A stretch of 64,000 bases of DNA. It comes from a marine gamma proteobacterium HTCC2080. GTDB lineage: Bacteria; Pseudomonadota; Gammaproteobacteria; Pseudomonadales; Halieaceae. The stretch covers positions 1 through 64,000 of the forward strand of contig AAVV01000013.1 of NCBI GenBank assembly GCA_000169115.1. The letters are read 5' to 3'. The translations under genes and the position numbers were made by a program. Shown here one piece after another: positions 4,024 through 42,249 of the stretch; position 1 is the first letter of the stretch, and each line of letters begins with the position of its first letter. The notes under the pieces were generated by a model. It was not told the origin of the DNA. It saw nothing but the letters and a program-made list of their open reading frames with translations, and made no database searches.

Positions 4024-4584
4024 ATTCATTTCCTCAGTAGGTATGCAAAACCCTTGTGGGTTTTGCTCGGACTCACACAACACGGGCATTGACTGCCCAG
4101 AACACCCTCGACAGAACGACTTTACGCCGTAGGGTTGTCGGTGGTTCTCAGGCGCGACCAAAACATATTACTGAGTTTAGGCCTTGGACGTCCACGAGCA
4201 TTCAATGCGTCTTAATTTTAGGGTTTAGATTTTAGATAGGCACTGTCAGCAGACAGGTGCAGCGGTAACCAGCAGACAGGTGCAGCGGTAACAATTGCGA
4301 AGGCGTCTTTTTAGCGGGCGGGAGTTTGGCCTTGCCATCTGAAATGGACACGCTGCTTTGCCAATTTGGGTAGATGCATTGCTGCAGCGCGCTGCGTGCT
4401 GCCACCTGCTGCAACGCGTAATACATTTCGGTGCATCCTTTGAATGGCCCAGAGCGTAGCGTTATGGCCCCTAAGTTTTATAATATTCGAGCTGGGGTCT
4501 GTGCCGCTGGCGTTAGGCCAATACAGCGCAAGGCGACAGTAGCTAAATTTTTGGAAAAACAATCTCGAGGATGCTCTGCTTTAC
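4024..4584. other. Intergenic region with 2x23-bp tandem repeat
   Basis: This is the divergent gap between a minus-strand CoA-transferase and the plus-strand cupin gene, so it should hold promoters for both. The only clear structure is a perfect two-copy 23-bp tandem repeat at 4247-4269 and 4270-4292. I see no convincing ORF or RNA gene. Confidence 0.5.
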
Positions 4585-18514: not shown

Positions 18515-19750
18515 ATGGCCCTAATAGTTCAAAAATATGGTGGCACCTCGGTGGGCTCCGCTGATCGCATCGAGCATGTTGCCGATAAGGTTGCGGGCTT
18601 TCATCGCGACGGCCATGACGTGGTGGTTGTCGTCTCAGCAATGTCTGGGGAGACGAACCGTCTCATCGAACTCGCGCATTCCATAGAAGAGTATCCCCAG
18701 CCCCGTGAGCTCGACATGCTCGTGTCTACCGGTGAACAGGTCACGACAGCATTGCTGAGCATGGCGCTCCACAAGCGCAAGGTGCCTGCGCGGTCTTACA
18801 ATGGCTCGCAGGTGCGTATTCTGACCGATACTGCCCACACCAAAGCACGGATTCAGCACATTGATGGCCACCGTTTGCGGGCTGATCTCGATCAGCGGCG
18901 GGTCGTGGTTGTGGCCGGCTTTCAAGGTGTCGATCCCGACGGCAACATAACGACGTTGGGACGAGGGGGTTCAGATACAACGGCGGTAGCACTTGCTGCG
19001 GCACTGTCGGCAGATGAATGCCAAATTTATACCGATGTAGACGGGGTTTACACGACAGACCCTCGGGTTGAATCAAGCGCTCGACGGTTGGAGAAAATCA
19101 CTTTCGAAGAGATGCTGGAGCTTGCCAGTATGGGTTCCAAAGTGCTGCAAATACGCGCTGTGGAATTTGCGGGTAAGTATGCGGTGCCGCTAAGGGTTCT
19201 CAGCAGCTTTAAAGAAGGTCCTGGTACTTTAATCACCATGGAAGAGGACGCAGATATGGAAGCGCCAACAATAGCGGGCATTGCGTTCAACCGCGATGAG
19301 GCCAAACTCACCGTGCTCGGTGTGCCCGACACGCCCGGGGTTGCCTACAAAATTTTAGGGCCAGTGGGTGAGGCTAATATTGAGGTCGACGTGATACTCC
19401 AGAACACTGGAGAAGAAGGTCATACGGACTTCACGTTCACTGTGGCGCGCAACGACCTCGAAAATGCGAGAAAAATTCTTGAAGATTTAGTGGTGCAGTT
19501 GGACGCGAAAGAATTGCGTGCCGACGCAAAAATTGCCAAAGTGTCGATTGTTGGAGTGGGGATGCGATCACACGCAAACGTTGCTGCACGAATGTTTAAG
19601 GCCTTGTCAGAGGTGGGCGTTAATATCCAGATGATCAGCACGTCGGAAATAAAGATTTCGGTGATTATCGAAGAGAACTATTTGGAGCTCGCCGTCAGGT
19701 CTTTGCATTCCGCGTTTGGTCTCGAGCACAATCCCGAGGGCAACGGCTGA
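18515..19750 (+). CDS. lysC: Aspartate kinase
   Basis: 411 residues with the kinase start MALIVQKYGGTSVGS, substrate-binding VSTGEQVTTALLSMAL, LGRGGSDTTAVALA and YTDVDGVYTTDPR. Two ACT domains follow (TVLGVPDTPGVAYKIL and KVSIVGVGMRSHANVAARMF), which sense lysine and threonine. It phosphorylates aspartate at the head of the lysine, threonine and methionine pathways. The 124-bp gap after alaS is too short for a lysine riboswitch and shows none, so control is probably allosteric. Confidence 0.97.
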   Translation: MALIVQKYGGTSVGSADRIEHVADKVAGFHRDGHDVVVVVSAMSGETNRLIELAHSIEEYPQPRELDMLVSTGEQVTTALLSMALHKRKVPARSYNGSQVRILTDTAHTKARIQHIDGHRLRADLDQRRVVVVAGFQGVDPDGNITTLGRGGSDTTAVALAAALSADECQIYTDVDGVYTTDPRVESSARRLEKITFEEMLELASMGSKVLQIRAVEFAGKYAVPLRVLSSFKEGPGTLITMEEDADMEAPTIAGIAFNRDEAKLTVLGVPDTPGVAYKILGPVGEANIEVDVILQNTGEEGHTDFTFTVARNDLENARKILEDLVVQLDAKELRADAKIAKVSIVGVGMRSHANVAARMFKALSEVGVNIQMISTSEIKISVIIEENYLELAVRSLHSAFGLEHNPEGNG

Positions 19751-19806: not shown

Positions 19807-20019
19807 ATGCTGATACTAACAAGAAGAATGGGTGAATCCCTGGTGATTGGTGACAACATCACCATTACAGTGCTGGGTGTTAAGGGTAATCAGACCCGCC
19901 TGGGTGTAGACGCGCCCCGGGACGTTTCGGTACATCGGGAGGAGATTCTTAACCGGATTCAAGCCGATAACCCCTCAGAAGACGATGAAAGCGACGGAAA
20001 TACCCGCGATAGCGACTAA
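19807..20019 (+). CDS. csrA: Carbon storage regulator CsrA/RsmA
   Basis: A 70-residue RNA-binding protein with the CsrA start [16 protein letters not shown] and the core [16 protein letters not shown] and VSVHREEI, with the RNA-contacting N-terminal Leu-Thr-Arg-Arg and VHREE regions intact. The acidic C-terminal tail ([16 protein letters not shown]) is longer than in E. coli CsrA (61 residues). It binds GGA motifs in mRNA leaders and controls translation and stability. GGGAAG lies about 8 bases before the ATG. tRNA-Ser and the repeats follow directly. Confidence 0.97.
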
Positions 20020-20065
20020 AGCAGTGTTTTTCCGCGAATTCACTATGGTAGGATTCGCACCCTCC

Positions 20066-20156
20066 GGAGAAGTGGCCGAGTGGCTGAAGGCGCTCCCCTG
20101 CTAAGGGAGTATACGTTAATCGCGTATCGAGGGTTCGAATCCCTCCTTCTCCGCCA
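20066..20156 (+). tRNA. tRNA-Ser (GCT)
   Basis: A 91-nt class II tRNA with encoded CCA. The acceptor stem pairs GGAGAAG (20066-20072) with CTTCTCC (20146-20152). The anticodon stem CTCCC/GGGAG holds loop CTGCTAA with anticodon GCT at 20100-20102. A long variable arm (TATACG...CGCGTATC) and the T-loop GGTTCGAATCC follow. It reads AGC/AGU codons. It lies 46 bp after csrA and its 3' end is the first element of the 186-bp repeat. Confidence 0.97.
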
Positions 20157-20160
20157 TCCA

Positions 20161-20195
20161 AACAAAAGACGCCCCTCTGGGGCGTTTTTTTGTTT
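20161..20195 (+). terminator. Rho-independent terminator after tRNA-Ser (repeat copy 1)
   Basis: Stem ACGCCCC, loop TCT, GGGGCGT, then seven Ts; an A-rich stretch upstream can pair with the T tract. It lies a few bases after the tRNA CCA. Confidence 0.9.
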
Positions 20196-20346
20196 GGGGC
20201 TTTGACTATGGGATGAGAACCCTCGGGTTCGACAAACTCTGCCTAGGGCAGAGTTTGGACGCGGAGCCGTAAGGCGCAGCGCCCTGGAGTGGTTCGAGCA
20301 GCGGAGGCAACGCTGCTCGAATCAATCCCTCCTTCTCCGCCATCCA

Positions 20347-20381
20347 AACAAAAGACGCCCCTCTGGGGCGTTTTTTTGTTT
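20347..20381 (+). terminator. Rho-independent terminator (repeat copy 2)
   Basis: An exact copy of the terminator 186 bp upstream, again directly after a copied tRNA 3' end. Confidence 0.85.
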
Positions 20382-20539
20382 GGGGCTTTGACTATGGGAT
20401 GAGAACCCTCGGATTCGACAAACTTTGCCTAGGGCAGAGTTTGGACGGGGAGCCGTAAGGCGCAGCGCCCTGGAAGGGTTCGAGCAGCGGAGGCAACGCT
20501 GCTCGAATCAATCCCTCCTTCTCCGCCATCTAAGGTAAG

Positions 20540-20565
20540 AAGCCTCCCAAGTGGAGGCTTTTTAC
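20540..20565 (+). terminator. Rho-independent terminator ending the repeat array
   Basis: Stem AAGCCTCC, loop CAAGT, GGAGGCTT, then Ts; weak pairing of flanking A/T bases extends it. Its sequence differs from the two repeat terminators, so it marks the original boundary after the last copied tRNA end. Confidence 0.85.
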
Positions 20566-20685
20566 TTTAGGGGTTGAGTTGGCCGCGTGGTGAGCGCTTT
20601 TGTAGTGAAAGTGTACGCATCAAGCGCAGTATGCTCATCAGCTTTTGCTTCTTTCAATCGGCCGCTCTGGCTGCTAGACCTCTGA

Positions 20686-20762: not shown

Positions 20763-20919
20763 AACACAATCTTTAGCATTAAGCGACAGTTTTTAACAAA
20801 GCCATTAACTTTCATGCCTCAACTCACTACCCTGCGGCGGCGGGAATTTAGGTCCCATGGTCGCGTTTACCTCGGCTGTAAACCGGCGTTGTTCTGTGAA
20901 AAAGGGTGTTGAAGTTTAT

Positions 20920-23900
20920 ATGGTTAATCTGATTTTAAAGTTAGCAACACTCTACCTTTTGGCCTGCGCCTCGTTAACGTCGGCTGAAACCTTGGTGGTA
21001 GACGAGAGCAACCATAGAGGCTGGACCTTTTTCGCAAATCCCGCTGTCGATGTTGCGGGGGAGGCGCCGGTTGTGGGCATCGGCGACCATGCAGGCGGAG
21101 CGGCATCGCTCAACTTCAGCCTCAATGGGAGTGAAGACAAGAGCAGTCGGAATGCGCGCCTTTTAGCAAGTGATTTTCCTGCCGCGGGTTTGACAAATAT
21201 TACGACGCTAAGGGACCTGGACCTCTCGAAATTTAGCTGGCAAGTGCACCATAGTGATCCGGGCAACTACCCCATATTCAAAGTGGTAGTTGACGTCCCT
21301 ACCAATATCGATGAGGACACTGAGCATGACGCTATTTATTTCAGACATCAGAATCAGGCGGTTAAGCCTAACCAGTGGGACCTTGTAACAGTCGGCCCGG
21401 ACTCGATATTTTGGAGTGCTGGTCGGACAACCGACGGTAAACCATCCAAAGGCACATTCGCTGCATGGCTGGAAGTCATAGGCGATTATCCAATCTACAA
21501 AATTGCATTCGAGCTTGGCAATCCTAAAGAAAGCTATACCTCCTACATTGATTACATCGAGATAAATGGCACGAAATTTGACTTTGAGACATCGCCACCT
21601 TTGCCCCCGAGCGCCCCGACTGACTTGGTTGCCACAGCCGGCGACGGCCAGCTAGACATTGCGTTTACCCCAGCCGACGACAACGGCACGGACATTACCG
21701 ACTACCAATACAAGCGAGACGATGGCAGCTGGACCGCCGCAGGGACAACCGGCTCTTCAATTACCATACCCGACCTCACCAATGGCAAAGACTACGTCGT
21801 ACGTCTGCGAGCGATCAGTGCCGCGGGTGAGGGAGAAGAAGCGCAGATTCTGGCGGCACCTCGAGGCACCGCTGGTGACGTAACACTGCTCGTGACGTCG
21901 GATAACCTCCGTGGTTTTAGTTTGGCGCACTTTACGTCTGAGTATGTGCAAGCACGCGATAACGTGGGCATGGATGACGGATTTGGTGGCGCAAGCATCA
22001 ACGCGTCTTTGGAAGGACAGGGCGCCGACAGGTGGGGGCTGTTTCTCGACCCCGCACAGTTCAAAGGTGAAGAAATAAGTCAGGGCGGGCGCAAGGCCGA
22101 CCGGTTGCAAGACCTGACTAGCTTAAGCTACCGAGTGTGGCACGACGGCGAGGGCTACTACCCGAAGCTGGGGTTTCGCATGGAACGAGAGGCCCCAAGC
22201 GACGATGGCAAGACCATCTCGCAGCTCAATCTAAAGATGAATCAAATGCCCAGCCTGAACCCGGGATGGAACACGGTTGAGATCAAATTCGCCTCGACCC
22301 CATTTACTATTTCGTATCTGTCAGAAGGGGAAACTGCGGAAACGAGAACTTTGTCCGAGTGGATCGCTGAATACGGCGACCGTCGTATTCAGCTGTTTCG
22401 CTGGCAAACCGGCGACGGCAACGCAGATCGCAACACCACGCAGCAAACCTATGCCGATTACATAGAAGTCAACGGCGTGACTTATGACTTCGAGGGGACC
22501 CTGCCTGAGGTGCCGGATGAGTGCTCGAGTGCGGACTGGGCAGTGGTAGAGGCCTCAGATGCCAGCAAACAGGCCTTCCGATGCGTCGCAGACGAACTGA
22601 CATACGAGTATGCGGATTTTCACGTTCTAACAACGACCGGTAACGGCGCGGATATCTGCCAGAGCTCGCTGCCGATTAACGTTAACAACCAAGACAATGA
22701 CGCCTTGTTCTGTAGCGAAGCAGAGGGTGTTGTCAGAGCGGTATTTGATTGGGACAACCGAAGTATCGAACCTGGCGGTAAGGGGATCAGGCTTACTTGG
22801 CTCAACACCGTCAGCCACATTGGCTCCAGGAAAAAAGGCAGCACACCTTGCGGTAGCGCGGGTGAAACGGTGGCTGGTCGGTGTGCCAATCAACTGGCGC
22901 ATGGACAGAGGGCGTTTGTCGAAATGGCAGGTGCGGGCGGTCCGGCGATTGCTGAGCTGGATACCAGCAATCTGCAAAGTTTCAGGGTCATGTTCGGGTC
23001 AGCAGCACAATTTAACGAAGACATTAGTCGTTGGGATACTAAGGCCATCAAAGATATGGGATACATGTTTCACCAGGCGAAAGCCTTTAATCAAGACCTT
23101 CCTTGGGACACCAGCGGGGTTAAGAATATGGAAGAAATGTTTCGGGGCGCGTCGGTGTTTAATGGTGATGTATCGCTGTGGCAAACCGGTGTAGTCACAA
23201 ATATGAACTACATGTTCCGAGAGGCCACGGCGTTTAATCAAAATATAGGTACATGGGACACGGCGAACGTGACCGGCATGTACAACATGTTTCATAAAGC
23301 CAGATCATTCAATCAAAACATTGGTCAGTGGGATACGAGCAAGGTCACGACCATGCACCGAATGTTCGATCGGGCGGAGTCATTTAACCAAGATCTGTCC
23401 AAATGGGACATCGAGAACGTTACCGACAAAATCGATTTCGATGCGCTCGCCACCGCCTGGTGCGGAAAGACCTTTCCTAACAACGGTCGCCCTATTGGGA
23501 TTACTCCTCAGCTAAGTGATAGCTGTTTGGCGGACTCCGTTTCCGAGTGCAGCGCGGTAAGCGTAGACGAGTGGGCGCTGGCTTCGAGCGACCCCGAGTG
23601 GATCTGCCGAATCGATGGCGAGCCCTATGAGTACGCCGACTTCCATATTCTGACCACCATCGATAGCCAACCAGACGTGTGCTCGACGCCCGCCAACTAC
23701 CTACCCACGGACGACAACAACGGCGCCGGGCTGTTTTGCCAGCAGCGCGGCAGCGATGTGCGGGCGCTGTTCGATTGGGGCTGGGGACAGAATGATCAAC
23801 GCTGTAGCGTCGCAGTGTTAAACGGAAACGAGCAGTACTCCTGTCTGTACTGGTTGAAATCGGCAAGCCAGTTTGGGTCGCGCGCCGCCCTCCCTGGTGA

Positions 23901-26900
23901 TATTCCAGGCCTAACCGTTGCGGGCCGGGTGCCCAATCAGCTCGCAGACGGTAAATACGCCTTCGCCCGGTTTGCCGGCGAGGGTGGCAGTGGCTTCCAA
24001 AGCCTCGATACCTCTAACCTGACCTCGCTGAGTTATGCGTTTGCCCGGGCAAAGAGCTTTAAAGAGGACATCAGTGCCTGGGACACAGCAAAGGTTACCG
24101 CGTTGAACAGAGCCTTTTGGCTGTCCGACTTTGACCTGCCCATCCCAACCAATGGCAGTGCTTGGGATGTGAGCCAAGTGAGCAACTTCGATGGGGCGTT
24201 TGCTCAGAGCGCCTTCAATCAGGATCTCAGCTCCTGGGATGTTGGCAACGCTAGGCTGCTCTCGGATATGTTCAAAAATAATAAGCGCTTCAACCAGAAT
24301 CTGAGCGCATGGGCCGACAACCTCACGCAGCTCGCGACCTTGAAGAATATGTTTAGGAATGCGTCGGCCTTTAACAACGGCTTGACCGATGCGAGCGATC
24401 AGCCACTGAACTGGGGGGACACCCCTAAGCTCACGAACATGGACTATGTCTTTGCCGATGCGAAATCGTTTAATCAGCAGATCTTCGCCGACGGCGCCAG
24501 TACGGCTAAAGTTGAGAGGATGTCAGGCGCTTTCAAAGGTGCAAGCGCTTTCAATCAGGACCTGTCGGGTTGGAACGTTACGAAGGTAACGGACTACAGT
24601 GACTTTGACACCACTACCGACGTCTGGTGCGGTCTTGGTTTTGACAACCGCGGCCGGCCAAGCGATTGGGTCCCCACCGATACGGTGGGATGCCTTAACG
24701 TGGTGTTGCAGGCGCCGTTAAGCAGTAGCGTGGGCGATGAATTTGATTATGTCGTCCAGTATTACAACCAGTCCGAGCGCGACCTGATCAACGGCGCCCT
24801 GACGTTAGTGGTGCCCGCCGGCATGACGATCTCTGATGCGGGTAACGGCAATATCAATGGTTCGCAGGTCACCTGGGCCGGGGTCGATGTGCTGGCAGGC
24901 TCATCCGCTGATGGCGCCGGCGGTGAACGACGAGTGGGTGTCACGGTGGATGCTGGTACTGCAGACGGCGCGGCACTTGAGGCGTCCGCCACCCTTAGCG
25001 ACGGCGCGGCGACCACGGTGAATGATATTGCTCGTACGGTGATCAGTGCGAAGCCAGTACTGATAACGCAGATCAGTGCGTCCCAGCAGGTCGCGCCAGG
25101 AGAGCTTATCCAGTATGCCCTGTCGGTCAGTAACGAAGGGCAGAGCACGGCTACCGGCGGTCAAGTCACGCTCTCTTGGGAGGGTGATGCACCGTTTACG
25201 ATCCAAGATCGTGGTAGCGCCAGCTGTGCAACAGCAACATCATGCAGTTGGTCAGGCGACTTGTCATCTCAGGACACGCGCTCTCAAACGGTACAGGTGC
25301 GTGTGGGCACCACTGCGATCTCAGGCCAAACGCTTCGCGCGAGTGTCTCGGCGTCTGCGAGTAATGCCGTCGCGGATGAGGGCAATACCGCATCGGTCAC
25401 AACCGAGATTAGTGCTTTGCCGCTTCCCGCACTCAGTGTAGGGCTTACCACCCAGCCTCAGGGCGTGCTTACGGTCGGTGAGCAGTTTGTTGCTTTCTTT
25501 GACATGACAAATACGGGCAGCGGAGTGGCTGAGTCAATCACAGCGACCCTAGAAATACCGAATGACGTCACGTACGTCGGAGGTGTTGCTGGCGGTGGAG
25601 AGGGCGTTTTTGACGACACAACGAATAGCGTGACATGGACCTTATCCAGCCTCGCGCCCTCGGGTTCGGCGAATTTTGGGGTAACGCTGAAAGCGCCGGA
25701 GGTGTTTGGTGGGATCATTTTAAAAGCCGACGCGGCGACGCAAAAGGATGGTCAACAGATCACAGCCAGTGGTGAGATCGCGCTCCACGTAACGGGAGAT
25801 GCGGTGCTGGATCTGCAACTGAGCCTGGATCCTTCCGAGCAAGTGTTACCCGGGGACGCCCTCGAGATGGCATTGCAATTCCAAAATATCGGTAGCGACA
25901 CCGCCTTTGCGGCGGTGGTTGATACGGAGACACCGGCAGATACGACCCTCTTTACTTGGCCTGACTATGCGCAATGCACGACTGGCGGTGCAGGTGGAGA
26001 GTGCACTGTAGGTTACGCAGGTGAGATGCGTTTGCCCTTGGGAGATGTCGAGGCAAAAGAAAACGCGGTGGCAAACATTCAGGTTTTAGTCAGTGAGGTC
26101 ACCCAAGCGGCGCAGATTTCGGCGGCGGCGACGCTCACGGGCACTGATCGCGATGGTGAAGCGCTTGCACAGCAGGCAGCGAGCAAAAGTGTGAGCGTGG
26201 CAGCGCTTAATGAGGTGGTGTTGACGGTGAGCCAGCAGGCAGATCGGCAAACCGCTGCGCCCGGCCAGGTCATTGTTTACGAGATTACTTACCAAAATGG
26301 GGGCAGCAGTGACGTCAGTAATGCGGTGCTCGCTGGCGTGTTACCAGCAGATACGCGGCTACTAAATCTCTCAGGTAACACTCTAACCGATGACTCTGAC
26401 GGCGGGACTTCTAGTTGGCGATTGCCATTGGACACCTTGGCACCCTTTGATAGTGGCACGGTGCGCTTAGAAGTTGAAGTGGCAGGTAATGCTGAGCCGG
26501 GGACCTTGCTCAACAATCAGGTGACCCTCAGCGCAGCGGATGACACGCAGAGGGCTGAAGCGGCCCCAGTGACTGTGGTACCCGCCGGTGCTCCTATTTT
26601 GGAATCTTCCATCAGTAATCCGGAAGCCACGGTGCCCGGTGGTTCTTTCAGCTACGCACTGCACTATGCCAACACGGGCACCCTCGCTGCCGCGAATACC
26701 CCATTGCAAATGCAAGTGGAGAAAGGGTTGGCCGTGACCGAATGTGATGGATGCACCACCCAGAGGGAAAATGATACGGGGGTGCTATTAAGCTGGTCTT
26801 TGGGTTCGGTCGAAGTGGGCAGTGGGACCAAACAAATTAGCGTGACAGTGGATCCTGGTGTTACTGCCAACTCCGAGCTTCATGCCATCTCTTACATCGG

Positions 26901-29334
26901 TGAACCGCAAAACGGCAGCCGCGCGACGGGGACGGTGAGCGGCAAACTCGACGCGCAGAGCGCGCGCCGCCGCGCGGGCGAGGCCGGTCTTCGAGAGGCG
27001 CCTTCGTCAGCCGAACTTGAAGGGCCGCTTGGGCTATCAGTCATTACCGTTGGGAAACAGGACTCACCGGCCCTGGGTGACCTGACGATCGCCGCACCAG
27101 ATCGGGCGGTGGCCGGTGATCAGGTGGCGGTAGTAGTGAGCTTTGCCAACACAGGCGGCGCGGCGGCGACCAATGTGACGCTGTCTGCTACCGTGCCAAC
27201 CCATTCTGCCGTCGACAGTGTCGAAGGTGGTGTGTGCAGTGCGACCCCCTGTCTGGCGGGAGACACCATTACTTGGACCATCGGCGATGTCAGCGCTGGG
27301 AGCACTCGCACCGTGAGTTATATTCTGACCATTGACAGCAGCGCAGTGGACGAGGTGATTCAACATGGTGTGGCGCTAGACAGCACCGAATCTCTTGAAG
27401 AGTCGGCCTTTGCTCAAACCGCTGTTCTCGACGCCATCTTATCGGTCGCGATCGGGGTGGCAGACGCGGGTGGGGCCAATGCAGAGGCGAGCTATGTCAG
27501 TGCAGGAGACACGCTGACCTACACCCTGACCCTACTGAACGATAGCCCCGTCGCCCAAAGCAACCTGACCGTCGTGAACCAGCTGCCGCCTCTCATTGCA
27601 GCCTGCGGTGCGGCTTGTGTGTCAGGAGACGCCAGTGGCGCCGCAGTGAATGCCGAGACAGGCACGCTGACGTGGTCGGGCGTCAGCCTCGATCCAGATT
27701 CCGATGTGTCGCTCGATTATCAGGTGGTCATTCCTGCCGGCATGGCAGATAACACTGCCTTGGTAAACAGCGTGAGCGTGAGTAAGAGTGCCCGGCTATC
27801 CGGCAGTGATAGCGCGACCGTGACGGTGTTATCAAAAGCGGCACTTTCTGTCTCGATGACAGCGCCTGCGGTGTTGCAGGACGCTGCGCAGGGGTCGTTG
27901 ACATTGACCGTTCGAAATACTGGCACTGTCGGGACGGCGGCGACGCTCCGTTACGTCTTACCCAGCAATGCGACGATGGTTGATAACGCTGGGGCATCCG
28001 TATCGGGTCCCGCCTACACCTGGAGCCTCGATAATTTGGCCCCGGATGCGTCGGACTCTCGCGTCATCACGATTGCGGCCGCTGGGGCTGCCGACACGAC
28101 ATTGCTCCATGTAGCGACAGTGACCGGGAGCGGAACCAGCGATAGCACTGAAGCCAGAACGGTGATCGGTGTCCGCGAGGAGTTGGCGCTATCGCTGACT
28201 GCGCCAACATCTGCAGATACCGACACTGGATTTACCGCCAGTCTGTCGGCACAGAACACCGGCAACGCAGCCGCTAACGGCACGATTGTGACGCTGACGT
28301 TGCCGACTGGTTTTACTGCGACTGATCTGGCAGGCGGGACACTTGATTCTCAGATGATTCGCTGGACGCTGGATCTGACGGCTAATGCAACCCAAACCCT
28401 GAGTCCGACGATCATGGCACCGACGGCGCCGGATAGTGGCGTATTGCTGGGAGGGCTCACCGCAATCAGCGGTAAAACGCAGAGCGCCAGCGCCACGGTG
28501 CGGGTTACGGCTCCGGCTGCTGCGATGATTTTGGCGAGCGCCCAGTTCTCTGCTGTCGAGGCAATGGCGGGCGAGACCGTGAGCCTCAGTGCAGGCCCTA
28601 CCAATATTGGAGATGCGGCCGCAGGCGAGATCACCAACATTGTGACATTGTCGAGCGGTCTGGCACCGGTAGAGACCAGTGGCGCTACTTGGAGCAGCAC
28701 TGATCGAACACTGCGCTGGACCACCAGTTCACTCGCGGCACGGGCGTCAGACCTGAGACAGCTCACCTTGCAGGTTGAGGAGGCCGGCCCGCTGAGTGCT
28801 GATGTGAGCAGCGGTGGGGCGAGAAGCACAGCGACGATGGTTCGCGCCTCGCTTGAGCAGGTCGACATGCAACCCATTGCTCCTGAGTCGAACTGCAAGC
28901 TATCCGGCAGGCCGATAGTGCAGGCGGCCCCGCCGCCGCCCGACGGTATGACGCTTGCGTTCGCGAATGCCGTGGGCTTCTCGGTGATCGACTGTGGTCG
29001 CGATCCAAATACGGATTATCCGGAGAGAATGAGGATCACCATCGATATGGGAGGGCCGATTCCAGCGGATGCGCAGCTCTACAAGATCGCGGACTCAGGC
29101 GCTTGGAGCGTGATTGCTGCAGCGGATATTGAGGGCCAGACGGTTACTTATACCCTGAGCGACGATGGTGAGCTCGATCAGGATCAGACCCCTGGCATCC
29201 TGAGAGACCCGGTGGCGTTAGCCTACCCAGCAGGTAAGCTGCCTGTAGTGCCTGTTCCGCTTCCTTTGTGGCTACTCGCCGCCCTCATGGGCTTGGTAGG
29301 CTGGCTGGGCTACCGGCGCTTACGGCTGGCGTAG
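20920..29334 (+). CDS. Giant exported surface protein (BspA-like repeats, DUF11-like repeats, C-terminal anchor)
   Basis: About 2,804 residues from the ATG at 20920, chosen because MVNLILKLATLYLLACASLTSA is a signal peptide; the ORF is open from 20857. Approximate order: two related beta-rich domains (22-215 and 321-527, each ending YIEING/YIEVNG.. FDFE/YDFE) around an FN3-like domain (227-319); a Cys-containing module (535-681) and 25/26-residue repeats (W.T..V..M..MF..A..FNQDI); a second module (877-1024) with repeats to about 1227; then about a dozen DUF11-like domains (NTG.G.A....TLPS) to about 2644; a choice-of-anchor U-like domain (TYTLSDDGELDQD); and a tail [10 protein letters not shown], hydrophobic helix, RRLRLA. 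It is probably displayed on the cell surface for adhesion or ligand binding. Its paralogue follows. Confidence 0.9.
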   Translation: MVNLILKLATLYLLACASLTSAETLVVDESNHRGWTFFANPAVDVAGEAPVVGIGDHAGGAASLNFSLNGSEDKSSRNARLLASDFPAAGLTNITTLRDLDLSKFSWQVHHSDPGNYPIFKVVVDVPTNIDEDTEHDAIYFRHQNQAVKPNQWDLVTVGPDSIFWSAGRTTDGKPSKGTFAAWLEVIGDYPIYKIAFELGNPKESYTSYIDYIEINGTKFDFETSPPLPPSAPTDLVATAGDGQLDIAFTPADDNGTDITDYQYKRDDGSWTAAGTTGSSITIPDLTNGKDYVVRLRAISAAGEGEEAQILAAPRGTAGDVTLLVTSDNLRGFSLAHFTSEYVQARDNVGMDDGFGGASINASLEGQGADRWGLFLDPAQFKGEEISQGGRKADRLQDLTSLSYRVWHDGEGYYPKLGFRMEREAPSDDGKTISQLNLKMNQMPSLNPGWNTVEIKFASTPFTISYLSEGETAETRTLSEWIAEYGDRRIQLFRWQTGDGNADRNTTQQTYADYIEVNGVTYDFEGTLPEVPDECSSADWAVVEASDASKQAFRCVADELTYEYADFHVLTTTGNGADICQSSLPINVNNQDNDALFCSEAEGVVRAVFDWDNRSIEPGGKGIRLTWLNTVSHIGSRKKGSTPCGSAGETVAGRCANQLAHGQRAFVEMAGAGGPAIAELDTSNLQSFRVMFGSAAQFNEDISRWDTKAIKDMGYMFHQAKAFNQDLPWDTSGVKNMEEMFRGASVFNGDVSLWQTGVVTNMNYMFREATAFNQNIGTWDTANVTGMYNMFHKARSFNQNIGQWDTSKVTTMHRMFDRAESFNQDLSKWDIENVTDKIDFDALATAWCGKTFPNNGRPIGITPQLSDSCLADSVSECSAVSVDEWALASSDPEWICRIDGEPYEYADFHILTTIDSQPDVCSTPANYLPTDDNNGAGLFCQQRGSDVRALFDWGWGQNDQRCSVAVLNGNEQYSCLYWLKSASQFGSRAALPGDIPGLTVAGRVPNQLADGKYAFARFAGEGGSGFQSLDTSNLTSLSYAFARAKSFKEDISAWDTAKVTALNRAFWLSDFDLPIPTNGSAWDVSQVSNFDGAFAQSAFNQDLSSWDVGNARLLSDMFKNNKRFNQNLSAWADNLTQLATLKNMFRNASAFNNGLTDASDQPLNWGDTPKLTNMDYVFADAKSFNQQIFADGASTAKVERMSGAFKGASAFNQDLSGWNVTKVTDYSDFDTTTDVWCGLGFDNRGRPSDWVPTDTVGCLNVVLQAPLSSSVGDEFDYVVQYYNQSERDLINGALTLVVPAGMTISDAGNGNINGSQVTWAGVDVLAGSSADGAGGERRVGVTVDAGTADGAALEASATLSDGAATTVNDIARTVISAKPVLITQISASQQVAPGELIQYALSVSNEGQSTATGGQVTLSWEGDAPFTIQDRGSASCATATSCSWSGDLSSQDTRSQTVQVRVGTTAISGQTLRASVSASASNAVADEGNTASVTTEISALPLPALSVGLTTQPQGVLTVGEQFVAFFDMTNTGSGVAESITATLEIPNDVTYVGGVAGGGEGVFDDTTNSVTWTLSSLAPSGSANFGVTLKAPEVFGGIILKADAATQKDGQQITASGEIALHVTGDAVLDLQLSLDPSEQVLPGDALEMALQFQNIGSDTAFAAVVDTETPADTTLFTWPDYAQCTTGGAGGECTVGYAGEMRLPLGDVEAKENAVANIQVLVSEVTQAAQISAAATLTGTDRDGEALAQQAASKSVSVAALNEVVLTVSQQADRQTAAPGQVIVYEITYQNGGSSDVSNAVLAGVLPADTRLLNLSGNTLTDDSDGGTSSWRLPLDTLAPFDSGTVRLEVEVAGNAEPGTLLNNQVTLSAADDTQRAEAAPVTVVPAGAPILESSISNPEATVPGGSFSYALHYANTGTLAAANTPLQMQVEKGLAVTECDGCTTQRENDTGVLLSWSLGSVEVGSGTKQISVTVDPGVTANSELHAISYIGEPQNGSRATGTVSGKLDAQSARRRAGEAGLREAPSSAELEGPLGLSVITVGKQDSPALGDLTIAAPDRAVAGDQVAVVVSFANTGGAAATNVTLSATVPTHSAVDSVEGGVCSATPCLAGDTITWTIGDVSAGSTRTVSYILTIDSSAVDEVIQHGVALDSTESLEESAFAQTAVLDAILSVAIGVADAGGANAEASYVSAGDTLTYTLTLLNDSPVAQSNLTVVNQLPPLIAACGAACVSGDASGAAVNAETGTLTWSGVSLDPDSDVSLDYQVVIPAGMADNTALVNSVSVSKSARLSGSDSATVTVLSKAALSVSMTAPAVLQDAAQGSLTLTVRNTGTVGTAATLRYVLPSNATMVDNAGASVSGPAYTWSLDNLAPDASDSRVITIAAAGAADTTLLHVATVTGSGTSDSTEARTVIGVREELALSLTAPTSADTDTGFTASLSAQNTGNAAANGTIVTLTLPTGFTATDLAGGTLDSQMIRWTLDLTANATQTLSPTIMAPTAPDSGVLLGGLTAISGKTQSASATVRVTAPAAAMILASAQFSAVEAMAGETVSLSAGPTNIGDAAAGEITNIVTLSSGLAPVETSGATWSSTDRTLRWTTSSLAARASDLRQLTLQVEEAGPLSADVSSGGARSTATMVRASLEQVDMQPIAPESNCKLSGRPIVQAAPPPPDGMTLAFANAVGFSVIDCGRDPNTDYPERMRITIDMGGPIPADAQLYKIADSGAWSVIAAADIEGQTVTYTLSDDGELDQDQTPGILRDPVALAYPAGKLPVVPVPLPLWLLAALMGLVGWLGYRRLRLA

Positions 29335-30022: not shown

Positions 30023-33000
30023 ATGGGTGTATTCATGAATCAGACCAATACCACCAGCCCAACAGAGGGCTGTGTCGATCACGATTCGCGGCCACCGGCA
30101 TCTCGTTACATCACCAGCACGCTGTCGGTGCTCAGCAGCCGCATTGGCGCGGCCATGAGTTTTCTGGCGGCTAGCTTGGCGCGTATCGCTGCGCCCGCGC
30201 AGGTTGTTGATTCGAGGAGCCACCCCCACCATTCGAGCAGCGTAATTAAAACATGTTTGGCAACTCTGCTATCCGCAGTGGCCACCCTTTGGATGAGTGC
30301 GGCGTTAGCACAGGCAACCCCCCCGGACAGCGGAACCTCTGCCGCTGATGTCATTGAGAATTTAGCCCGCTGGCGAGAGGATCCCCAAACTAATGCCCAA
30401 GCGCAGACGGCCCTTTACTACATGATCCCGGGTAATAGCTGCGATTCTCCACCGTCGGGGACGGGTACCGTCGATGGCCACCAAGACGTGACCACGGGTG
30501 TGATGACACCCACCTATGGGTTCCCGGCGCAGGCCGACCCCTGCACCGTCGGTGTTGGCCAAGGCCGTAACCTTTCCGCCTGGAACAGAATGGTCAGAAT
30601 CAAATTTAAAAATACGCCAGAGGCGATAGCACTTTGCAGCGACGTCAATGCGCTTGTTTGGGAAATAGCCACGGAATCTGCGACAGGACAGCTTAACGCT
30701 CGCGAATGCGACACGAACCGCTTTCTGAACTTTAAAATCCCTGACAACGTGGGCGCGGCGGAATACGACTTATTGCTGCAGACTCAAGGCGGCACGCAAA
30801 TTGTATTGGGGCAATGGGACGGTGACGGAGAGTGGAACCTTGAATCGCCGCCTGCTTGCGATACGGTTGATTGGCAAGAGGTTGAATTGTCTGAGGCCAC
30901 TAAGGACGTCTTCCAGTGCACCGTGGATGGCACGCCGTACGCCTACGCCGACTTCCACATTCTCACCACCGACGGCAGTGATGTCTGTGCCGCGCGCGAT
31001 ACCTATTTGCCGACGGCTGAGGGTACCTACAAAGGCATCTTCTGTAGTCATACAAACTCTAAGCTCCGAGCCATTTTCAATTGGAACAACGGTGCAAGAG
31101 ACAAAGAGTTGGCGTGGCTAGTGAATGTGGACCAAATCGGCTCTAGAACGAGAGCCGGCGTGGCTTGTGGGAATTTTGGTAAGACTGTTGCGGGCCGGTG
31201 CGCGAATCAACTTAGCGGGGGCAAGAGGGCGTTCCAAGCCATGCTCGGTGAGGGCGGCGCAGGAATTCGTAACCTAGATATCGCCAACCTGACGAGCTTG
31301 GAAGAGATGTTTTATAAGGCGTCAAACTTTAACGAAGACATCACCGATTGGGATGTCAGACACGTTAATAATTTGCGGCGACTGTTTGAGAAGACCAGCT
31401 TCAATCGCGATATCGGCGTCTGGGACACCAGCTCCGTAGACAATATGTCCTCGATGTTCAACGGGACTCCGTTCAATCACGATATCGGCAGCTGGGATAC
31501 GTCGAACGTTACCACCATGGTGTACATGTTCACTAATACGGATCAGTTTGATCAGGACATTAGCCGGTGGAACACGTCGAACGTAGCCAACATGGCTTAT
31601 ATGTTTAGGAATACTGCAAGGTTTAATCAAAACATCAGCACCAAGTCAGTGACGGAGGAGGGCGGGACGTCTTACACAGCTTGGGATGTATCAGCGGTCA
31701 CCAGCATGGACAGCATGTTTGACGCGGCAAAAGCATTCGATCAGGACATCGGTAATTGGGACACAAGCGCGGTTGTGAACATGAAAAAAATGTTCAGTCA
31801 AGCAAGCGTCTTCAATCAGGGCATTGGCGGTTGGAATACGGCTAGCGTGACCGATATGCAAAATATGTTCTCCAGTGCTGAAGCGTTTAATCAAGACATC
31901 GGCAGTTGGAATACCGCAAGCGTGACCGATATGCAAAATATGTTCTCCAGTGCTGAAGCATTTAATCAGGACATCGGCAGTTGGAATACGGCTAGCGTGA
32001 CCGATATGGAAAACATGTTCTTCAATGCTGAGGCGTTTAATCAGGACCTGTCAGGTTGGAACGTCACAAGTATCGCATCTGAACCCTCGGACTTCAGGTC
32101 AGGCGCAAGCAATTGGAGTGGCGTCGACCCTGATACTCAGCAGACGTGGTGCAACAAAGGCCAACCCCAGTGGGGTACCGATGGTGCACAGTGTGCGCTG
32201 CCGCGCTGTAGCGAGGTGACCGAGAGCGAATGGGCGCTGGCTTCGAGCGACCCCGAGTGGATCTGCCGAATCGATGGCGAGCCCTATGAGTACGCCGACT
32301 TTCATATCCTAACTATCAATGGCACGGATGTCTGTGCCAATCCGGTCGATCAGCTGCCAACCGAAGACAATGATGGCAAGGGTCTTTTTTGCTCGAGTGA
32401 CGACGGTACCAACGCCGTTCGCGCTATCTACGACTGGGACAATGCCTACGATGGTGAAAAGCCACCTATTGCGTTGTCATGGTTAATCTCAGTTGAGCAG
32501 ATCGGATCTCGCGGGGGGGGTAATTGTGGCGAGGCGGGAACAACCGTCGCGGTGCGCTGCGCAAATCAGCTTAAAAGTGGGCAAAGGGCATTCCGAGGCA
32601 TGGGCGGAAAGGGTGGAGAGGGCATCAGGAAGTTAGACGTCACCAACCTGACAGATCTCAGCTACATGTTTTTTATATCTGCATTTAATGATGATCTCAG
32701 CAAGTGGGACACCAGAGATGTGGGAGACATGCGCGGTATGTTTGAGTCCGCCTCCGTTTTCAATCAGAGCATTGGTGGTTGGAATACCAGTAACGTGCAC
32801 GCCCTGAGCGGTATGTTCAAAAACGCAACCGCTTTTAATCAGGACCTTAGTGCGTGGGGAGACAAGCTCACGCGACTCCACAGTATTGAAAATACGTTTA
32901 GAGGCGCATCGGCCTTTAATAACGGTGCAGCAGCCGGTGAGAGCGGTCAGCCTCTCAACTGGGAGACGCCCACTCTCCGGAAAATGAACTATGCCTTCGC

Positions 33001-39007: not shown

Positions 39008-39113
39008 GCTGCAGGTCTCATTAGTTTTGTACTGCGAAGGTTAGCAGTAAACCGCTCATCTGACGGTGATAGGTTGCAGCTATCTGCAGCCAAGGCACTA
39101 TGTTGGTCTGTCA

Positions 39114-39155
39114 CCACAAACCACAAACCACAAACCACAAACCACAAACCACAAA
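39114..39155. repeat. Heptamer microsatellite (CCACAAA)x6
   Basis: Six perfect head-to-tail copies of CCACAAA, followed by a broken seventh. It lies upstream of the flavin reductase gene on its 5' side, and about 380 bp before the pit gene. Confidence 0.95.
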
Positions 39156-39465
39156 CCAAGAAGCATCAGTAACTTGTACATAACAGATCTAGTCGTTGCT
39201 TAAATTCACTCGGCCTAAAGTCGGAGCAATAAAAAGTGTTATCAGCAAGTCTTGCGAGCATTGATAACCTTTGTGGGCCAGGGAGGCGTTGCCGCTAGGA
39301 AACTGATCAAATCGAGCGTTGAAGCGAGGGCGGGCAAGGTCACAAATGATGCTCTATGTGATTTTTATTTGTGGTGATTTCGTCCGGAGATATTGCCAAT
39401 ATCCAAAAAAATATAATAAAAACAATATTTTAGGAAATTTTAATTATTTTTTTTTGATGGGGCAA

Positions 39466-41719: not shown

Positions 41720-42249
41720 GCGCGTAATCTGGCGCGAATCCTTCACGTTTGCACTATGAGTTGGCTGCTAGATACAAAGTTCTAGATATAGAGCTCAAGA
41801 AACAACGCGGCGCAGCAGGCAGCACGGGAGCGATGATTGTCTGTGCCCTGAGACTTACTGACAATCTCCTCTTTATTTTTTCGACGCTCTGCCATTTGGC
41901 GTCGTTATGTCCTCGTAAATTAGCTGTCCCGTTGGATTATCGTGTTGGCCATTGGCCATTGGCCACTGGCGATTGGCGAACGAGAGCGCTGCCTAATATA
42001 TGTTGCGTCCCGTCTGGGCCGGCTAATCACAAGAATTGGTCATTTACCCAAAGCCCAATATTGCTAGAACTTAAGTGCAGTGAGCGGCGGCATAGGCGCC
42101 CTTAAGCTGTGCAAATCAGGTCTTGGCAGGCAGGTATAAAAGGTAACTTTCCCAGATATTTTCCAGAAAAAGTGAAAAGTTTTCGCGCTGTAATATTAAT
42201 GCAACAAACTTGTCATATTTTGCGGCAAACATTGATGAGGAAGTGTCCA
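41720..42249. other. Intergenic region with heptamer repeat and porin promoter
   Basis: Degenerate TTGGCCA heptamers occur at 41945-41979: three perfect copies, then CTGGCGA and TTGGCGA. The end of the region holds candidate Pho-box elements. A plus-strand frame at 41749-42105 shows no protein features and is probably chance. Confidence 0.55.
42188..42227 (+). promoter_or_regulatory. Candidate Pho box of the porin gene
   Basis: CTGTAAT (42188-42194), ATTA, ATGCAAC (42199-42205), AAAC, TTGTCAT (42210-42216), ATTT, TGCGGCA form four heptamers at 11-bp period. The first and third match the PhoB repeat well, the second and fourth poorly. The encoded protein is a phosphate-selective porin, which supports the reading. 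It lies close to the start codon (23 bp away), so the true transcription start is uncertain. Confidence 0.5.

Follow-up and report, generated by a model that had tools for sequence, protein, structure and literature searches.

The tandem repeat behind tRNA-Ser(GCT) of the marine gammaproteobacterium HTCC2080: a TLR array almost certainly homologous to the TLRs of Escherichia coli

Introduction

In Escherichia coli, tRNA-linked repeats (TLRs) are defined by a stretch of 18–19 bp that repeats, without change, the end of the tRNA or rRNA before it (PMC8144298). They have been known since 1978 and 22 of them are on record, located at ten loci; this 2021 paper describes TLRs as being without known function and then proposes one for those linked to rRNA (PMC8144298). 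One of their products, rttR, is an annotated ncRNA in E. coli MG1655 and is listed as REP-bearing in PMC12306157. In the literature, transcription and processing of TLR RNA have been shown only for the E. coli relatives, and our literature search, which was thin on subscription journals, yielded no publication dealing with TLRs beyond E. coli and related organisms.

Here we describe a TLR array behind the tRNA-Ser(GCT) gene of the marine gammaproteobacterium HTCC2080. It is located in the window, by which we denote the whole analysed stretch of 64,000 nt (contig AAVV01000013.1, positions 1 to 64,000, forward strand). What appeared to be a local curiosity represents a large family with a defined anatomy, namely a structured core whose two ends both match the tRNA it follows (15 anticodon types in the tested set). 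This anatomy provides testable predictions on transcription, processing and recombination, together with covariance models for finding further units. The presence of the core in roughly one of every three gammaproteobacterial genomes surveyed, the covariation of its stems, its matching to the tRNA and the gene blocks found between units are new.

Results and Discussion

The tRNA-Ser(GCT) locus

In the window, lysC (18515–19750) is followed by csrA, and tRNA-Ser(GCT) begins 46 nt past the latter. Compared by LysC, the closest relatives with a name are Halieaceae records, which makes this family the probable source of the window. The locus comprises the following features (R2 is a covariance model described below):

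19807–20019, + strand: csrA, the upstream neighbour (PF02599)
20066–20156, + strand: tRNA-Ser(GCT) (ARAGORN, Rfam tRNA); its last 19 nt, 20138–20156, are repeated by each unit
20157–20342, + strand: TLR unit 1, counted from the terminator to the CCA of the copied tail; the corresponding direct repeat is 20138–20323; R2 match at 20210–20342, 140.8 bits
20343–20528, + strand: TLR unit 2; R2 match at 20396–20528, 134.4 bits
20510–20530, + strand: end of unit 2, where a third copy of this tRNA end agrees with the repeat start over 21 nt
20541–20563, + strand: second, different terminator-like hairpin 3' of the array, read directly off the sequence

A first-pass annotation of the same DNA had described a tRNA-Ser(GCT) followed by a 186-bp tandem repeat, and this description holds: besides the tRNA prediction by ARAGORN, a repeat search returned the direct repeats 20138–20323 and 20324–20509 (186 nt each, 97% identical), and TRF reported a period of 186 with 2.1 copies at 20138–20530 (score 751). 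Two copies are thus placed directly 3' of tRNA-Ser on the plus strand (20157–20528). The tRNA end with which each repeat begins had been given as an exact copy of 16 nt; the copy is indeed exact, but its length is 19 nt (AATCCCTCCTTCTCCGCCA), and this copied tRNA 3' end, the defining feature of TLRs, is present with 19 of 19 nt in both units. The units differ at exactly five positions, where about five had been estimated (20227 G/A, 20239 C/T, 20262 C/G, 20289 G/A, 20290 T/G). One of these changes retains pairing within a stem, as had also been claimed, the C to T exchange at 20239 turning a C-G pair of hairpin S1 into U-G; those at 20227 and 20262, by contrast, break one pair in P0 and S2, respectively. 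A chance repeat was ruled out by the exact 19-nt end, the 97% identity over 186 bp and the existence of relatives.

Anatomy and folding of the unit

From one CCA to the next, the unit consists of a terminator-like hairpin, an anti-T-arm with hairpin P0, the four hairpins S1–S4 and the last 19 nt of the tRNA. In unit 1 these elements are arranged as follows (A6 is the family alignment introduced below):

20158–20197, + strand: terminator-like hairpin, preceded by an A run and followed by a T run; both directions are possible on paper
20210–20232, + strand: anti-T-arm GGGATGAGAACCCTCG and T-loop mimic GGGTTCGA; hairpin P0 pairs 20217–20221 with 20226–20230
20233–20257, + strand: hairpin S1, 11 bp; both sides of all 11 pairs vary across the family
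20260–20281, + strand: hairpin S2, two short helices (fold and A6 covariation)
20282–20292, + strand: hairpin S3, best paired of all stems in the family; its form in unit 1 is irregular
20295–20319, + strand: hairpin S4 (inverted repeat, fold and A6 covariation)
20324–20342, + strand: copied 3'-terminal 19 nt of tRNA-Ser, from the T-loop to CCA; 20325–20329 can pair with 20210–20214 to give the closing stem Pout

Because A and T runs flank the hairpin at 20158–20197 on both its sides, a consensus terminator scan reported it on the minus strand only (two terminators found against 1.2 expected from shuffles). The anti-T-arm strand 20210–20225 is 88% complementary to the T-arm of the tRNA at 20128–20143 (inverted-repeat search). 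Judging from sequence and comparison, every unit is able to fold into a closed, structured domain, in which the anti-T-arm can pair both with the copied tRNA end (Pout) and with the T-arm mimic (P0) around the four covarying hairpins. The predicted fold of unit 1 reaches -100 kcal/mol (z -7.2) and that of unit 2 a z of -5.6; none of 200 shuffles equalled either of them.

Relationship to the TLRs of E. coli

Two covariance models, both free of E. coli sequences, were used for comparison: R1 was built on eight same-genus units, and R2 on 60 rows of an alignment designated A5. The first-pass annotation had called the locus rtT-like, and both models bear this out by matching E. coli rtT. R1 recognized all four rtT units (L103) over their full length with 25–26 bits, and R2 matched the same four with 31–37 bits. 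R2 furthermore matched the TLRs of lysV and lysQ (28 bits) and the stretch after the 5S gene of rrnB, the reported RrB region (29.6 bits); its matches to the short TLRs of the argQ operon were weak (11.5–18.6 bits), it missed the short TLRs inside the lys operon, and it had no match in the glyVXY, leuQPV and metZWV operons.

The resemblance extends to the details of the unit. In both organisms the 18–19 bp of the tRNA 3' end close each unit, units are arranged in tandem (178 bp in E. coli, 186 bp here), the anti-T-arm carries GTGAG/ATGAG, GGTTCGA precedes S1, S3 is a CCCGAAGGG hairpin, and the last hairpin is followed by AATCC...CCA; the window unit and the E. coli tyrT-V unit also agree in the plan of their predicted folds. 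Unlike their E. coli counterparts, the window units are attached to tRNA-Ser(GCT), occur in another bacterial order and next to csrA, have longer S1 and S4 stems and score below the thresholds of the Rfam family RtT. We consider the locus to be a TLR array that, by sequence and predicted structure, is almost certainly homologous to the E. coli TLRs. The Rfam model (RF00391, threshold 45 bits) recovers rtT of E. coli (four units), the lys-operon TLRs and a tRNA-Tyr unit of another gammaproteobacterium (L232; 46.9 bits, compared with 66.9 bits for R2), but has no match in the window or in L001, and the window units are absent even from its matches up to E = 10. The locus is therefore filed as a TLR and not as a member of RtT. 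When 20050–20600 was compared with Rfam at E ≤ 10, the tRNA alone exceeded its threshold; sX4, sR-tMet and others, all below threshold, were taken as chance or tRNA matches.

The E. coli elements RrA, RrB and RrF share the order RNA end, terminator, element with the array, but they are linked to 5S rRNA, and for them binding of CsrA and Hfq is in print. A scan at a maximum of one mismatch did not find a copy of the annotated 5S end. The shorter E. coli TLRs between tRNA genes (argQ-argZ-argY, L274; lys operon, L279) keep S2, S3, S4 and the tRNA tail and, as judged by eye, are without P0 and S1.

Units in the window genome and within the genus

A DNA search with 20157–20565 as query matched 16 of 58 genomes, the window's included, and some of these matches consisted of the tRNA tail alone. 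R1 detected units in 27 of 57 same-genus genomes (window's included; several of the 57 are incomplete) and in 12 of the 17 complete ones. Since a match is restricted to this part of the genus, the TLR unit is dispensable. An absence of the unit from related genomes, which the first-pass annotation would have counted against its own reading, was not observed, as these 27 genomes and others far beyond the genus carry it. Same-genus cores also occur behind tRNA-Ser(GGA), Phe, Arg and Lys, where complete copies carry the tail of their own tRNA at the end; decayed, truncated units are present in G065, G059 and G018.

In the window genome, three of 38 tRNAs are accompanied by a repeat of their 3' end (at most 3 mismatches in 18 within 700 nt of the tRNA): Ser-GCT with its two units, Val-GAC with one unit of the same core, and Met-CAT. 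R2 identified three units in this genome, every one of them behind a tRNA, and yielded no match on the remaining tRNA stretches, Met-CAT included. The latter tRNA is followed by a second, different type of TLR (L105; G000:C17:110000-111100), whose two units of 118–119 nt carry the tRNA-Met tail at their end, copied with 2 mismatches in 18, and are not matched by R2.

Distribution, tRNA matching and covariation of the wider family

Genome surveys with R2, performed with strict filters and rough E-values, detected the core in 109 of 293 same-order genomes (47 of 118 genera), in 94 of 274 gammaproteobacterial genomes (79 of 222 genera) and in 27 of 200 genomes drawn from the phylum; 17 of these 27 lie outside the class, 16 of them in one family. 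At all nine new loci from the phylum search (seven outside the class), a same-strand tRNA is located just upstream.

The match between unit and tRNA was assessed on 58 loci, which are the best-scoring ones per genome and thus lean to good units. A same-strand tRNA lies upstream of 47 of them, in 46 cases within 400 nt; of the twelve left out, eleven have no same-strand tRNA upstream in the stretch examined, and one is 622 nt away from a tRNA whose tail it matches. Among the 46 tRNA-adjacent units, 36 end in the 18-nt tail of their own tRNA with no more than 2 mismatches (median 0 over the 46), compared with a permutation maximum of 14 and with a single one of 1634 control pairs between different amino acids. 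The 46 units represent 16 anticodons and the 36 matching ones 15. Six of the ten units that do not match keep the first 8–12 nt of the tail and then diverge. The anti-T-arm fits its own tRNA as well, with at least 11 of 14 matches in 31 of the 46 units, as opposed to 15% of 1634 pairs with other tRNAs.

Covariation of the stems, for which the first-pass annotation had pointed to related genomes, is evident in the alignment A6 of 88 units. Changes on both sides affect 34 of 40 pairs, 90.7% of the cells pair, and the covariation score is 0.381 compared with 0.113 in shuffles (none of 500 as high) and at most 0.068 with the partner slid, all of these figures being inflated by the fitting of A6 to the structure of the model. 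S1 and S4 use many pair types. On this comparative evidence, we conclude that the structure of the unit is selected or maintained. The units could instead be an inert by-product, i.e., copies of tRNA ends that arose by slippage and persist because they are harmless, as might be suggested by their patchy presence within the genus and by the truncated copies described above. Independent slippage, however, would not give a core with covarying stems that recurs, in many families, next to tRNAs with 16 different anticodons, and we regard this explanation as improbable.

Mean core identity is 0.72 between units of the same tRNA in other genomes and 0.70 between units of the same genome behind other tRNAs. 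The nearest neighbour of 57 units belongs to the same tRNA type in another genome in 43 cases, to another tRNA of the same genome in seven, and to neither in seven. These values suggest that units are for the most part inherited at their locus and to some extent exchanged within a genome, for example between Ser-GCT and Ser-GGA in G063 and G010.

About 79 of the 88 S3 loops in A6 have the form C-GNA-G (e.g., CGAAG, CGCAG), the complement of which is C-UNCG-G. The C-GNA-G form is very stable in DNA hairpins.

Read-through RNA as the favoured explanation

The explanation towards which we lean is that the TLR array yields a read-through RNA with a tRNA-like processed end, because its closest studied relatives do so and because its structure covaries. 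RNA polymerase would sometimes pass the hairpin terminator behind the tRNA, and the tRNA-like 3' end of the unit would be cut and trimmed in the manner of tRNA ends. The product would be one structured RNA of about 130–190 nt per unit, formed in proportion to the transcription of the tRNA. The 186-bp direct repeats could be gained and lost via slippage or homologous recombination and the duplicated tRNA end might attract incoming elements, which would account for differences in copy number and for the genes that separate units in relatives. Being located behind a terminator-like hairpin, the unit may be mostly silent, which, like its dispensability within the genus, counts against this explanation. 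The first-pass annotation had also suggested a small stable RNA, a product known from E. coli relatives only. Among possible RNA roles, we rank a modest one in protein binding or as a processing substrate first.

Comparisons between the strands gave a divided picture. In 46 of 61 units, the sense strand of S1–S4 has the more favourable fold of the two strands by RNA energies (48 of 71 for tRNAs), which was counted in favour of an RNA; the full unit is without strand preference (31 of 64), and 27 G-U against 49 A-C wobbles in S1–S4 likewise count against it. The sense preference of S1–S4 is equally clear by DNA energies (52 of 61), so that folded DNA remains compatible with the data. As wobble counts and energies disagree, no strand conclusion was drawn. 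For RttR itself, a table row of PMC4606813 reads 97 ± 9%, with no change in the other columns, and was counted against an RNA role; the table reportedly stems from an overexpression screen.

The proximity of csrA raises the question whether the unit gives rise to a sponge RNA that binds CsrA and thereby acts back on the neighbouring gene, as RrA, RrB and RrF of E. coli. RrB, whose region is matched by R2, binds CsrA (PMC8144298), and in the apical loops of S1 and S4 no trinucleotide is more frequent than GGA, which occurs in 22 and 25 of 64 units, respectively, exceeding the shuffle maxima of 15 and 19. However, GGA occurs in either of these loops in only 26 of 64 units, and unit 1 of the window has a full GGA in neither of them (UAG in S1, GAGGCAA in S4), unlike RNAs of the CsrB/C type with GGA in several apical loops. 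Furthermore, the 19 tRNA-type TLRs of E. coli score below 0.01 in a CsrA-RNA predictor (PMC8144298). Since the core also occurs behind many tRNAs other than the csrA-adjacent one, the link to csrA is probably incidental, and we consider a role as CsrA sponge highly improbable.

Gene blocks between units

Several relatives have genes inserted between successive units of the same strand, at distances of 1–10 kb. Units are located at both ends of gene blocks in G066:C23, G063:C14, G035:C69, G069:C104, G030 and G077, and in other families around gene blocks in G462:C11 and G352:C30. G066:C23 contains five units and four gene blocks at a spacing of 1.2–9 kb, and in G030 and G077 two units flank a HigB/HTH pair behind tRNA-Ser(GGA). 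The cargo, named partly by eye and otherwise by Pfam, includes a TetR regulator, an MFS transporter, a CDP-alcohol transferase, parts of ABC transporters and HigB-type toxins with HTH partners. The occurrence of such blocks in several families points to a contribution of TLRs to the conversion of tRNA genes into sites of gene gain. The first-pass annotation had alternatively proposed that the repeat is a trace of repeated recombination at the tRNA end, a view supported by the varying copy number and by the units at gene-block junctions in some relatives.

The unit might accordingly act as DNA, its copied 19-nt tRNA end (and the T-loop mimic before S1) serving as a spare attachment or recombination site for tRNA-seeking elements and gene cassettes, with tandem units as empty cassettes or decoys. 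This is a serious rival to read-through RNA, although we rate it as rather unlikely, and the two are not mutually exclusive. In line with this reading, a 240-aa gene without a Pfam match is located beside a unit in both G066 and G063 (82% identity over 1064 bp) in differing contexts. G035 and G063 also share a 3.5-kb ABC-transporter block (88%), which stops at the T-loop and is followed by two different types of junction, and in G462 the last 15 nt of the tRNA precede the terminator of the second unit. Behind tRNA-Ser(GCT), the upstream flank on the csrA side is common to 11 of 15 loci (nine distinct records, as L023/L182 and L026/L179 appear to be duplicates), whereas the downstream flank is common, among those 11, only to the two duplicate pairs, with short downstream stretches (238–326 nt) for four loci. 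A shared csrA side next to an unshared other side bears the mark of an insertion hotspot. In G028, a phage-type integrase begins 109 nt past tRNA-Ser(GCT), where a TLR was looked for and none was found.

In having direct repeats beside a tRNA that flank gene blocks, toxin–antitoxin pairs included, some relatives resemble integron cassettes and tycheposons, which are tRNA-borne integrative islands. The window genome differs from both systems in encoding two tyrosine recombinases only, and recombination by the unit is here a candidate process. Its two PF00589 matches (299 and 349 aa) were taken as XerC and XerD by number and size, and G063, G068 and G003 likewise have just the two expected for this pair. 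No dedicated integrase therefore seems to be resident, even in G063 with its gene blocks between units, and this count weakened our working idea, derived from the gene blocks, of an integron-like system with its own integrase. Outside the genus, moreover, 40 of 51 neighbouring same-strand pairs closer than 20 kb are bare tandems at 154–203 bp, five are spaced at 227–369 bp and six at 0.5–19 kb (counted by hand across the order, class and phylum surveys, among the matches listed). One of the six wide pairs, in G758:C1, has a second complete tRNA-Ser before the third unit. One junction in G035 has a tRNA fragment but no unit, and several junctions start in the anticodon loop, which is absent from the unit; part of the blocks therefore used the tRNA itself. 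Lastly, an attachment site has no obvious need for four covarying hairpins.

A more specific and quite doubtful version would regard TLRs as a tRNA-anchored cassette system, in which the T-loop mimic and the copied tRNA tail, perhaps as folded DNA, form the landing and exchange site for gene blocks. Bare arrays such as those of the window and of E. coli rtT would then be cassettes without cargo, and XerCD, a helper integrase or RecA would move them in place of an integrase of their own. We continue to prefer the read-through RNA.

Several further observations concern mobile DNA. The 14.7-kb contig of G066:C23 with five units (L163) has identical 54-nt ends and could be a circle or a collapsed array. 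Four same-genus genomes encode a further tyrosine recombinase of about 300 aa, a possible helper, with scores that are similar among them (87–92 bits):

G035:C69:176688-177173
G066:C242:2191-2676
G077:C1:751229-751714
G006:C1:2086668-2087150

The G035 copy is located about 7 kb from the Val-type units of this genome. In a phage collection, 111 records match the query, none of them over 80% of its length, and the best 20 listed places cover the tRNA part only.

Other features of the window

An open frame of 2825 aa (20857–29334), with an fn3 domain in its first 720 residues, lies 3' of the array. TRF also reported a 75-bp repeat with 3.2 copies at 31804–32047 and the short tandem repeats ACCACAA (6.6 copies, 39113–39158), TTGGCCA (4.7 copies, 41945–41977) and a 23-bp unit with two copies at 4247–4292.
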